From positions 1 to 32,848 of the forward strand of contig JALREL010000165.1 in NCBI GenBank assembly GCA_023262005.1: a stretch of 32,848 nt of DNA, read 5' to 3'. Shown here in pieces: positions 16,042-18,865 of the stretch. Position 1 is the stretch's first letter; each line of letters opens with the position of its first letter. The notes under the pieces are model-generated. The model ran no database searches. It worked only from the letters and a program-made list of their open reading frames with translations, and was not told the origin of the DNA. Made by a program: the position numbers and the translations under genes. This DNA is from Sphingorhabdus sp. Lineage in GTDB: Bacteria > Pseudomonadota > Alphaproteobacteria > Sphingomonadales > Sphingomonadaceae.

Positions 16042-16991
16042 GCCGCCATCTCCTTGTTGGACCATGCTGGTGCGTCGGTGCGAATGGCAGAGCGCAGCGT
16101 CGAGGAGCGGGCACGGGGATTGGCCTCAATCTCGCGGGCGCTGGGGCGCACTGCCTTTGCCGGTTTTTCAAAAGTCGCTGCGCGCGCGGCTTTGACTATT
16201 GGCATATGGCGCGAACCGGTTGCGGTCGAACCGCTGCGATCGCGCAGGAATTGCTTCACGATGCGGTCTTCAAGGCTGTGGAAGCTGACAACAGCAAGCC
16301 GGCCACCCGGCTTCAGGATACGCTCGGCGGCTTCAAGCCCTGCGGTCAGTTCATCGAGTTCGCGGTTGATATGGATGCGCAGCGCCTGGAAGGTCCGCGT
16401 TGCAGGATCCTTGGGCGCGCCCATCCGGTGACCCAAGGCCTTGCGCACCACATCGGCAAGCTTGGTGGTGGTATTGAACGGCCGCGCCGCGACAATCGCG
16501 CGGGCGATGCGACGCGATTTCGGCTCTTCGCCATAAAGGTAGATGACATTGGCAATTTCGGCCTCGTCCGCCGAATTGACGAAATCTGCCGCACTTTCGC
16601 CCGACTGGCTCATCCGCATATCGAGCGGGCCGTCTTTCTGGAACGAGAAGCCGCGATCGGCCTGGTCGATCTGCATCGACGATACGCCGATATCGAGCAC
16701 CACGGCATCGACCTGTTGCACGCCGCATTCGGCGAGCCTTTTATCCATTTCTGAAAAGCAGGCGGAGTGGAAGCGCAAAGCACCGCCACTCCGCTCTGCA
16801 AGGTCAGCACCTGCTGCGGCAGCATCGGGATCGCGATCAAAAGCATGAACGCGTGCACCCGCAGCCAGGATAGCCCGGCTGTAACCACCAGCACCGAAAG
16901 TGCCATCCACGACGTCTGAACCTGGGGTGATGGCCAGAGCGTGAATTACTTCATCCAGAAGGACCGGAATATGGGGGGAAGGCTGCGTCAT
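16038..16991 (-). CDS. rsmH: 16S rRNA (cytosine(1402)-N(4))-methyltransferase RsmH (MraW)
   Basis: RsmH is an S-adenosylmethionine methyltransferase that modifies C1402 in the decoding centre of 16S rRNA. I take the ATG at 16991 ([19 protein letters not shown]), overlapping the mraZ stop by four bases, giving 317 residues. It has the SAM-binding motif [43 protein letters not shown] and DMRMSQ. The C-terminal signatures are [31 protein letters not shown] and the ending [10 protein letters not shown]. It sits as the second gene of the cluster, its canonical place. Confidence 0.97.
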
Positions 16992-17479
16992 TTGCCGCGC
17001 CTCCCATGCTCGCCCAGCCAATATTCCAGCTCTTCGCGAACATGCGCAAAGGCGGGCGGGGCGGAATCCATGAACACATCAGGATTCCAGAGCATGAAAT
17101 GAGTCGTCGCGCCGAAGAAGAAGGCCTTCTCGCCGAGCTTGCCGAAATGGCGCAGCATCGGCTGCAGCACGAAGCGGCCGCTGCTTTCAAACGCGGTTTC
17201 GAAGATCGAGGAGGCAACGACGCCGGCGCTCTCACGGTCGAATTCGCCGCCGCGCTGCACCGCTGCCTGCCATTGGGTTTCGATATCTGCCCGCAATTTC
17301 TGGCGCTCGGCGCGGCCATAACCGATCAGGCAGGGAAGATTGGGGTGGCGCGAGATGCAGACAATGTTCTCGCCAGAGGATTCAGCAACTGTGTCGCGAA
17401 GCTCGGCCGGGATGGTGACGCGCCCTTTGGCATCGATCGTCGATAGTCCGGAACCGGCATAGACAACGAATGCGGACAC
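16988..17479 (-). CDS. mraZ: Transcriptional regulator MraZ
   Basis: MraZ is a DNA-binding protein with two AbrB-like SpoVT folds that in other bacteria represses the dcw operon it heads. Two copies of the fold are visible: [21 protein letters not shown] near the N-terminus and a diverged second copy around [25 protein letters not shown]. No ATG precedes the first fold, so I propose the GTG at 17479 (163 residues). It is preceded by GAAGGGG, though the spacing of 12 bases is long. A GTG at 17515 would add 12 non-conserved residues and lacks a visible ribosome binding site. The upstream region carries repeats that fit an MraZ operator. Confidence 0.92.
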
Positions 17480-17529
17480 AGTCTTGAAACACCCCTTCCC
17501 TTGGGCGCAATCCACCGTCCGCTAAAGCG

Positions 17530-17620
17530 CAACGCCTTCGCGTTGACGTTCTCTTGAACGCAACAAATTGGATTTCACCCCGATAAGGATGTTCCTTATC
17601 AAGGGATTTCGTGGGTGAAA
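17530..17620 (-). promoter_or_regulatory. mraZ leader with a series of inverted repeats
   Basis: Read toward mraZ, four perfect inverted repeats lie in 91 bases. An outer 8-base pair TTTCACCC/GGGTGAAA (17573-17580 with 17613-17620) encloses GATAAGGA/TCCTTATC with a 3-base loop (17582-17600). Then come CGTTC/GAACG with a 4-base loop (17547-17560) and CAACGC/GCGTTG with a 4-base loop (17530-17545). They could fold in the mRNA leader or act as protein-binding DNA. No transcription start is visible, so whether they are transcribed is unknown. Confidence 0.5.
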
Positions 17621-17647
17621 AGAGGGATTCTATGGGAATTTTTGGGC
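17602..17647 (+). promoter_or_regulatory. Putative MraZ operator (five GGG repeats at helical spacing)
   Basis: On the plus strand GGG triads start at 17603, 17613, 17624, 17634 and 17644. In TGGGN-like form they read AGGGA-N5-TGGGT-N6-AGGGA-N5-TGGGA-N5-TGGGC. MraZ of E. coli is known to bind direct TGGGN repeats separated by five bases upstream of mraZ. The match in spacing and place is strong. The orientation, on the strand opposite to mraZ, is something I cannot verify against characterised examples. Confidence 0.6.
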
Positions 17648-17661
17648 TTAGCGTATCACTG

Positions 17662-17772
17662 CATTGTTTTTATTGTATTTTTTGTTTTGCATTCCCTTCT
17701 CTATCGCTCGACCCGCGTTAACAGTTACAATTTGACGACAATCCTATTCCATTGTTTTTAATGTATATTTTT
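17662..17772. repeat. AT-rich imperfect direct repeat, two 23-base copies
   Basis: The copies at 17662-17684 and 17750-17772 both begin CATTGTTTTTA and match at 21 of 23 positions, 88 bases apart. They flank a GTTAAC-containing segment upstream of mraZ. The area is far more AT-rich than its surroundings. The second copy runs into the likely terminator of the upstream gene, so part of the similarity may simply reflect T-rich composition. Confidence 0.5.
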
Positions 17773-17789
17773 AAAAGTCGATTTCGACT
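17768..17789 (-). terminator. Possible weak Rho-independent terminator after the GldG-like gene
   Basis: Just after the stop codon at 17797, the minus strand has the inverted repeat AGTCGA-AA-TCGACT (17776-17789), followed by TTTTAAAAA. The stem is only five to six base pairs, so termination may be inefficient and read-through into the mraZ region is possible. Confidence 0.35.
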
Positions 17790-17796
17790 GCCCAGA

Positions 17797-18603
17797 TTAT
17801 TCCAGAATTTCCCCACGCTGTCCCACAAGCCTGCGACCCCGTTCGAGTCGGTCCAAAAGCTGCATCGTCCAGTCCATATTCGGTGAACTGTCGCCGCCAG
17901 GTAAAGCAGACTGCCATAGCGCGCTGTGCAGCAAGTCGGCATCGGCGACCAATATCACCTGCCCTTTCCCCGGCCGACACTCCGCCACCAGCCCGCCTTC
18001 GGCAATACGACAATTGCCTGAACCTGATTTCAGCGCCAGCCATTGCCCTGGTGAAATCGTGCGGAGTTGGTGCTTGCCAACTTTGGCCTCGGTTTCCGAT
18101 GTGGTGGCATCGGGATCGATGGGCAGCACCAGTTCGAGCCCCCAATGCGCGAACAGCGGCGAGTGCATCGACGTAAACAGCGGCCGCGCCGGATCGCCGA
18201 AGGGAAGTTCGCTTGGCCATTGCAAGGCGGGATCGGCAAAGAACAGCAACCGCCCACCTGCCTGCACCCAATGATCAAGGCGTGCCAGTTCCTCGGGGGT
18301 GAACGGGCGCGGCTGGACGAGCATCGCGACCTTGGCCTTGGCCGCCTGCAACTGCGCAACATTATCCACCATGATGATCTGGCGATCCTGATCCAGGCGC
18401 ACAAACAGCGGATCCGCCTTGCCTTCGCCGCGCGCGACAGCCCCAAGATCGGCAGCACCCCATTGCAGGTCGATGCTCGACATCATGACCATTGGACGGT
18501 CTTGCACAGGCTGGCTGCGGCTTTGCCACCACCAGACAATCGCGATGCCAACAATCAGGGTGATCAGGAGCAGCGCCGGCAAGGCGCGGTTGCGCAGCAC
18601 CAT
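17797..18603 (-). CDS. Membrane-anchored protein resembling GldG/ABC-auxiliary (DUF4350-like) domains
   Basis: The function is not known. The 268-residue product starts at the ATG at 18603, four bases after the stop of the preceding small gene. A transmembrane helix spans about 8-26, ending WWW, and the rest should be periplasmic. The soluble part looks like a Rossmann/amidotransferase-like fold: VAMLVQPRPFTPEELARLDHW (about 92-112), then VQAGGRLLFFADP (113-125) and late GKGQVILVADADLLHSALW (212-230). The pattern of a long segment ending in G-G-x-L-L and a late V-x-D-A-D-x-L resembles GldG-type auxiliary subunits of ABC transporters. Unlike those, no ATPase or permease gene is adjacent on the side I can see. 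The family assignment is an inference from motif shape only. Confidence 0.75.
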   Translation of the reverse strand: MVLRNRALPALLLITLIVGIAIVWWWQSRSQPVQDRPMVMMSSIDLQWGAADLGAVARGEGKADPLFVRLDQDRQIIMVDNVAQLQAAKAKVAMLVQPRPFTPEELARLDHWVQAGGRLLFFADPALQWPSELPFGDPARPLFTSMHSPLFAHWGLELVLPIDPDATTSETEAKVGKHQLRTISPGQWLALKSGSGNCRIAEGGLVAECRPGKGQVILVADADLLHSALWQSALPGGDSSPNMDWTMQLLDRLERGRRLVGQRGEILE

Positions 18604-18607
18604 GGCG

Positions 18608-18865
18608 TCAGTTCGGCGCGCGCTGTTTCGACTTGGGTTCTTCCTCTGCACCGACAGAGGGGGTGACGCCCAGCTCGGCGAGCGGTTCATCCTTAGGCTG
18701 TTCACCATCCTTGCGATCGGTCACGGTCGAAGCTTGTGTCGGCTGCATGTTGCTGTCCGCACGGTCGAGGATCATGTTCGCGATCGAAACAAATAACAGC
18801 ACGGCCACAAGGCCAAGCAGGCCTACCTGTATGCGCTGCACAGCGGATTGTGCCGGACGTGCCAT
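18608..18865 (-). CDS. Small single-pass membrane protein, unknown function
   Basis: The 85-residue product starts at the ATG at 18865 (MARPAQSAVQRIQVG). It has one hydrophobic helix at about 13-33 (QVGLLGLVAVLLFVSIANMI) and a charged, probably disordered tail rich in Asp, Glu, Pro and Lys. No domain is recognised. It lies 18 bases after the cysteine synthase stop and four bases before the GldG-like gene, so the three are likely co-transcribed. A functional partnership with the GldG-like protein in the membrane is plausible but unproven. Its ribosome binding site is weak (GGGC region). Confidence 0.7.
   Translation of the reverse strand: MARPAQSAVQRIQVGLLGLVAVLLFVSIANMILDRADSNMQPTQASTVTDRKDGEQPKDEPLAELGVTPSVGAEEEPKSKQRAPN

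Follow-up and report, generated by a model that had tools for sequence, protein, structure and literature searches.

The window, the whole stretch of 32,848 nucleotides analysed here, is contig C219 of a draft genome that is 82% complete. On its minus strand lies mraZ (16988-17479), the first gene of the dcw cluster, with a GTG start codon at 17479-17477. Its product matched PF02381 (6.3e-08), and the GTG at 17479 is the position at which most mraZ matches of the relatives begin. The next gene is rsmH/mraW (17021-16038; MraW methylase, PF01795, 8.2e-89), and a gene for a penicillin-binding transpeptidase lies further along in the same minus-strand gene order. The gene 5' of the leader (17797-18708, minus strand) encodes ABC_transp_aux/DUF4350 domains and has the same direction as mraZ; read-through from it could give a longer additional mraZ transcript.

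The mraZ gene was matched in all 61 genomes of the first search, of which 37 belong to the genus of the window and 24 are order-level genomes. With eight genomes added later, the genus set comprised 45 genomes. Of 149 family genomes, 145 had an mraZ match; the other four, G239, G279, G371, and G406, from two genera, gave none at E<=0.001. Two separate MraZ-like matches (C1:1286438 and C1:1886248) were observed in G091. In a DNA search with the upstream region, most of the genus matched only around 17638-17597, and four close relatives gave longer matches. The clades referred to below (window clade, clade B, and clade C) were defined from the leader sequences.

Operator and predicted promoter

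The MraZ operator occupies 17603-17646 on the minus strand and consists of CCC boxes at 17646-17644 (in this genome), 17636-17634, 17626-17624, 17615-17613, and 17605-17603, which are direct repeats 10, 10, 11, and 10 bp apart. Thus, the window contains at least three direct repeats with a G/C triplet and a spacing of ~10 bp ahead of mraZ, the arrangement by which such an operator was recognised. The CC of boxes 1 and 3 and the CCC of boxes 2 and 4 were invariant in all 45 genus genomes. CCCAT-like repeats were also seen by eye in the 13 order-level leaders that were fetched (from 24 order-level genomes with mraZ). Just 5' of the boxes, an AT-rich 22-nt direct repeat (17662-17683 and 17750-17771, 91% identical, 88 bp apart) was found, which is perhaps UP-element-like DNA.

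A promoter is predicted at 17593-17621 on the minus strand, with a -35 element TTTTCA (17621-17616), a 17-nt spacer, and a -10 element TAAGGA (17598-17593) after TG; the block at around 17638-17597 that is matched in most of the genus reads TCCCATAGAATCCCTCTTTTCACCCACGAAATCCCTTGATAAGG on the minus strand. The promoter pattern places the predicted transcription start at ~17586 (17584-17587, minus strand), so that the promoter of the window appears to sit inside the MraZ boxes. In the 45 genus genomes, TTTT was invariant, as were three bases of TGnTA (G, T, and A), its first T being kept in 44. Next comes a stretch that varies in both sequence and length, and after it an invariant GGGGT. The full pattern TTTTCA-N14-TGnTA was present in 43 of the 45 genus leaders. 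Among the order-level leaders, TTGNNN was found in 12 of 13 and TGGACG in one, at 17-18 nt from the TA of TGnTA. Of 16 leaders from other family genera, just 4 had a similar promoter pattern; these genera either use another promoter or have one that has diverged beyond the reach of the search pattern. A generic promoter scan missed the site at 17593-17621. The GGGG after the start was considered as an operator half-site and rejected, its distance from box 4 varying by ~3 nt.

In B. cenocepacia, according to PMC7761207, the MraZ repeats come after the -10, “as in E. coli,” and overlap a start 100 bp before mraZ. The window shares with both organisms the direct repeats with a 10-bp period ahead of mraZ (PMC7761207 and references there), whereas here the boxes lie over the predicted -35 to -10 and carry CCC on the coding strand.

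The original prediction had described a structured leader with four perfect inverted repeats. All four were recovered where it had placed them, but they do not form one unit: the two-tier stem lies over the operator, the predicted promoter, and the predicted start, and the rest lies in the predicted 5'UTR. In addition, the stems lie ~51-141 nt upstream of 17479 rather than within about 100 bases of the mraZ start. The two-tier stem itself (17573-17620) has 8-nt arms, 17573-17580/17613-17620 and 17582-17589/17593-17600, which are 100% complementary, with a bulge of 12 nt (17601-17612) on one side and of 1 nt (17581) on the other. Folded as a single strand, it had a z of -3.85, and 0/200 dinucleotide shuffles were as good. 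It straddles the MraZ boxes, the predicted promoter, and the predicted start. The inner arm covers the -10, and the outer 3' arm (17613-17620) coincides with operator box 3.

The inner stem is contained in a 12-pair hairpin, P0 (17578-17604, minus strand; CCTTGATAAGGA/TCCTTATCGGGG), which spans the -10 and the start. When the CCC/GGGG ends were fixed and the inner columns shuffled, P0 was matched by 0/300 shuffles in the six closest genomes (G-U pairs included) and, weakly, by 8/300 in the 28 clade-B genomes. There was no support in the 10 remaining genus genomes (196/300), one of which, G062, duplicates a close relative and belongs to the clade of the window, or in all 45 (71/300). Whole-column shuffles gave 0/300 for the window clade, 0/300 for clade B, and 10/300 for all 45. 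For the same three sets, the stretch from box 1 to GGGGTGGA gave 1/300, 8/300, and 45/300 in column shuffles and 0/200, 3/200, and 1/200 against the phylogeny null. Most weight was given to the test with fixed ends because the CCC (operator) and the GGGG (P1) are conserved for separate reasons. P0 is genuine in the close kin of the window and may function at the DNA level or within a minor transcript from further upstream. Since the inner hairpin of the two-tier stem is best supported in the closest relatives, it is probably outside the main transcript.

Leader structure in the window and the genus

mraZ lies on the minus strand, and the strand on which the repeats had been read is therefore complementary to the RNA. 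Both small stems of the original prediction were confirmed, CAACGC/GCGTTG at 17530-17535/17540-17545 and CGTTC/GAACG at 17547-17551/17556-17560, and this pair of hairpins folded with a z of -2.53 (2/200 dinucleotide shuffles as good). The 84-nt leader (17503-17586) had a z of -2.69 (3/200); extended to the start codon (107 nt), the leader was less striking, with a z of -1.49 (16/200).

The leader RNA domain (17503-17580, minus strand) is closed by the helix P1, which encloses P2 and P3. P1 pairs 17580-17569 with 17514-17503 (GGGUGAAAUCCA / UGGAUUGCGCCC; 11 of 12 pairs, one of them G-U). It is the helix of longest range, is 83% complementary, and had been overlooked. P2 (17564-17556 with 17551-17542, minus strand) has a bulged U at 17546 and contains the hairpin 17547-17560. 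P3 (17542-17534 with 17528-17520, minus strand), which has one G/A mismatch in the window, and the hairpin 17530-17545 are mutually exclusive. In the alignment, P3 of the relative G001 has nine unbroken pairs, and the weak full-length alignment of the covariance model R2, introduced below, assigns 17520-17542 to P3. The minimum-energy fold of the window itself keeps P1, and P3 is replaced by the hairpin 17530-17545 together with a CGC/GCG hairpin at 17520-17529.

An alternative to P1 is P4 (17490-17507, minus strand), in which CGCCC (17507-17503) pairs with GGGUG (17494-17490) and covers the Shine-Dalgarno sequence GGGGUG (17495-17490). The 5' GGGGUG of the predicted transcript is a copy of this Shine-Dalgarno sequence. 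Constrained folding of the window gave -34.9 kcal/mol with P1 and -34.2 kcal/mol with P4, P1 being favoured by 0.7. Of 44 genus leaders, 43 had a gap no larger than 5 kcal/mol (median 1.3 favouring P4); this closeness is in part inherent, since a single CCC faces two GGGG. The leader of G005, in which no C triplet was found, was left out of these energies.

Across the genus, RNAalifold applied to 26 of 37 leaders (A1; the omitted ones are mostly near-identical, plus the longer leader of G005) returned 15 pairs, comprising P1, P3, and two more, and nine of these pairs had both bases altered in one sequence or more. In 18 of the 23 clade-B leaders (A2), a P1-P1b-P2-P3 model had 96.1% of cells paired and four pairs with double changes, and slid versions reached 31-55%. 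Against a phylogeny-aware null, the consensus fold of the leader was equalled by 0/200 sets each in the window clade (7 leaders), clade B (28), and all 45, the null being beaten on the antisense strand as well and not on the sense strand alone. Column shuffles gave 0/300 for each of the three sets. Four clade-C leaders alone gave 7/200, and five other genus members alone gave no consensus-fold signal (183/200). The 110 nt upstream of the boxes had no structure relative to the phylogeny-aware null (158/200 or more). An all-pairs covariation test over the 45 genus leaders revealed no significant pair (best E 1.4). By computation, a conserved leader structure is present in the genus.

The GGGGT that forms the 5' strand of P1 adjoins the predicted start and was invariant in 45/45 genus leaders. 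Two bases of the CCC were invariant in the 26 leaders of A1, and a plain CCC was not kept in G005, G021, and G066. In clade B, GCGUCCGCA was invariant in 18 leaders, P2 and the junction being constrained in sequence. P2 had 97.9% of cells paired in six leaders of the window clade; the three-way junction did not beat shuffles in these six (349/500 for cells paired and 63/500 for covariation score). In the six nearest leaders, the three-way junction had 90.2% of cells paired and the two hairpins of the original prediction 93.9%, and the two folds are not separable there because there are too few changes. The hairpin at 17530-17545 was intact in four of these six leaders; G001 had one broken pair and G061 had three. 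The alignment A5 omits G036 for length differences and G062 as identical to G001. Every row of the alignments A1, A2, A3, and A5 was confirmed to match the source DNA exactly.

A covariance model, R1, was built from the 18 clade-B leaders. It matched strongly at the mraZ leader in 28 of the 45 genus genomes and weakly there in two more, with a few weak matches elsewhere and no match in the window. Beyond the genus, R1 found nothing: under stricter search filters, 4 of 296 order genomes matched, all within the genus.

Leader RNA across the family

A total of 120 leaders were extracted from other genera of the family. Many of those listed have the form CAUCGGACA, two hairpins, and CGGGGAAG..GUGUCCG, which corresponds to P1 closing P2 and P3. 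The long-range pairing was also found by eye with different letters, for example AUCGACAAGC/GCUUGUCGAU in G072 and GGGCAAU/AUUGCCC in G079. Similar P1-like pairing of different sequence was noted, mostly by eye, in several other genera.

For statistical analysis, 33 leaders (A3) were hand-picked from the 64 of the 120 with a CATCGGACA-like anchor, a choice that favours the structure. In this set, 84.8% of cells were paired versus 75.0+-0.8 in shuffled sets, and 90 cells were changed on both sides versus 35.3+-4.5; slid versions were all far lower. Double changes occurred in 21 of 25 pairs, including all six pairs of P2, and the consensus energy was -52.4 versus -6.4+-2.8 (0/100). In the phylogeny-aware covariation analysis, the top six of 3,828 column pairs lie in P2 and P3, with a best E of 0.04 over all pairs, and 6 of 25 pairs reached E<=0.05 within the structure. 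The phylogeny-aware null reached the number of paired cells in 0/300 sets, the number of cells with a double change in 1/300, and the count of double-change pairs in 28/300. The strict test gave no significant P1 pair in A3 (best E_struct 0.39). Between P3 and the 3' strand of P1 (A3 columns 78-86), the family-type leaders keep a purine-rich stretch resembling CGGGGAAG.

The model R2 detected 59 of the 120 other-genus leaders at E<=0.01, which are the 33 training rows and 26 of the 87 others, and missed 61. On 196 order genomes, R2 found 50 at E<=0.01, all in the family of the window; two matches in the genus were weak and away from mraZ, and the window's own genome had no match at this threshold. 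A generic duplex test with mononucleotide shuffles on the 61 missed leaders gave 10 at p<=0.05 and 6 at p<=0.01 (median p 0.275), which carries no weight because the test is too noisy in GC-rich DNA. In the window, the best match of R2 (17585-17501) has full length and the expected strand and place, but its score is no higher than noise (4.7 bits; E 0.11 over 124 bases). The best genus leader, that of G012, scored 13.7 bits; the same search gave an off-leader match a higher score (14.7 bits), and R2 found no other genus leader at its position. By computation, a covarying structure is present in leaders of the family. The position and architecture of the genus and family leaders suggest that they are the same RNA, and the leader of the window would be a diverged member of this family-wide RNA, with a model score at noise level. 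The compensatory changes that the original prediction had named as support for an RNA element were found for the downstream structure both in the genus and in the family, within limits that include the 45-leader all-pairs test, the six window-clade leaders, and the family P1.

The earlier statement that no known riboswitch class could be recognised holds, as Rfam 15 had no match in the window, either at gathering or at E<=5. Eight genus loci gave one Rfam 15 match (E 0.092), located away from the leader, and 20 family loci gave two, both scoring far under the gathering threshold; one of them, RF01946 (13.6 bits, E 0.62), overlaps a leader. The mraW RNA motif is located before mraW. This motif, RF01746, resembles the present leader in being a candidate structured RNA named for a dcw gene; however, PMC2864571 lists it for Actinomycetales, and it had no match in the window. 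A search of the open-access literature, including PMC2704228, PMC8475190, and PMC3616915, found no report of an mraZ leader of this kind; most of the subscription literature was not covered.

Possible control of mraZ and alternative explanations

We suggest tentatively, as a reading whose chances fall somewhat short of even, that 17646-17503 is a two-layer (DNA and RNA) control region for mraZ and presumably for the dcw genes behind it. An RNA leader or a composite operator had been proposed for this region; both seem to be present side by side, and the RNA part was borne out for 17580-17503 but with a different, P1-closed architecture. We infer the start site, repression, switching, and any effector as follows. 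In the DNA layer, the MraZ boxes overlap the -35 and -10, and MraZ would repress its own operon by occlusion. In the RNA layer, the mRNA would begin near 17586 with the conserved domain, in which the 5' end of the leader pairs with the segment just upstream of the Shine-Dalgarno sequence (P1) and encloses P2 and P3. In the genus, the CCC (CRCCC) that closes P1 could pair with the Shine-Dalgarno sequence instead (P4). The P1 and P4 folds would exclude each other, and their predicted energies are nearly equal. Folding of P1-P2-P3, perhaps helped by a protein or metabolite, would free the ribosome site, and loss of this fold would hide it.

Translational control of mraZ and the operon is the most likely function in the genus, which we propose with moderate confidence. 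P4 was not seen by eye in the family-type leaders among those listed, and therefore the P1/P4 switch is unlikely as the conserved function. Since no such Shine-Dalgarno partner was visible near the family P1, the role that is conserved may instead lie in binding a protein or protecting the mRNA.

Several other explanations were weighed. The leader might stabilise the mRNA, with P1 hiding the 5' end and blocking 5'-end-dependent decay by RNase E, which would set the lifetime of the dcw mRNA and involve no translation switch. This is rather unlikely in our estimation, even if it suits the 45/45 genus leaders in which GGGGT, forming the 5' side of P1, adjoins the predicted start, and fits both leader types, the family type having P1 and, by eye among the leaders listed, no visible Shine-Dalgarno partner. 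The start sites are, however, predictions, and mRNA stability needs no joint conservation of GGGGT and of the CCC near the Shine-Dalgarno sequence, which is seen in most genus leaders. A little less probable still is that P2 and P3 form a binding site for a protein (e.g., MraZ, RsmH, or a ribosomal protein) that would exert feedback on the operon. The constrained P2 and junction of clade B (GCGUCCGCA) and the CGGGGAAG-like junction of the family type resemble a recognition surface, but the conserved bases differ between the genus and family types.

Another explanation assigns the function to the two-tier stem (P0 and the outer arms) and has transcription begin upstream of the boxes, as in E. 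coli/Burkholderia. In its favour are the P0 counts in the six closest genomes (0/300) and in whole-column shuffles (0/300 in clade B and a weak 10/300 in all 45), the box-to-GGGGTGGA result against the phylogeny null (0/200, 3/200, and 1/200), and the location of the B. cenocepacia boxes downstream of the -10 and over the start, as given in PMC7761207. Nevertheless, with CCC/GGGG fixed the support disappears in the other 10 genomes (196/300) and in all 45 (71/300), column shuffles of the box-to-GGGGTGGA stretch over all 45 gave 45/300, the outer arm is operator box 3, and the region upstream of the boxes is unstructured. Promoter-like hexamers with 17-18-nt spacing also lie inside the boxes in the genus and order-level leaders, and we consider this explanation improbable. 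A role of the leader as precursor to a trans-acting sRNA, set free by termination as UpsM of Rhodobacter is, is very unlikely. PMC5089854 describes UpsM as the 268-nt leader of the dcw cluster of Rhodobacter sphaeroides, with a Rho-independent terminator, yielding an sRNA, exclusive to Rhodobacteraceae, and proposed as possibly riboswitch-like. Both systems place a structured 5'UTR before mraZ, each in a family of Alphaproteobacteria, and U runs directly follow P1 in several clade-B leaders. However, the predicted UTR is here ~107 nt long and closed by P1, the relatives are Sphingomonadales, and the window has no U run after P1. The search for a Rho-independent terminator found no minus-strand terminator-like site in 17000-18000 and one on the plus strand (1.2 expected).

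Three further candidates were rejected: a terminator/attenuator, as the window has no U run; a conserved upstream ORF (a few leaders, by eye); and a mimic of the rRNA target of RsmH, which had no support.

Compared with the two-layer control region, a wider hypothesis is considerably more doubtful. The leaders would then represent an undescribed RNA family of the mraZ 5'UTR, occurring in many genera of one Sphingomonadales family, which senses a molecule or protein of wall synthesis or ribosome supply and sets dcw translation, in the genus through exchange between P1 and the helix that hides the Shine-Dalgarno sequence.

The locus illustrates that the hairpin most convincing to the eye, here one of two tiers, may consist largely of operator and promoter DNA, and that the RNA structure can run via a long-range helix that is easily overlooked. 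How wall synthesis and division are matched to growth is a long-standing question, and reports of RNA-level control of the dcw leader were found for few groups. The covarying leader RNA provides a defined and testable element directly before mraZ in a large alphaproteobacterial family, in many genera of which the leader is found by the covariance model R2.
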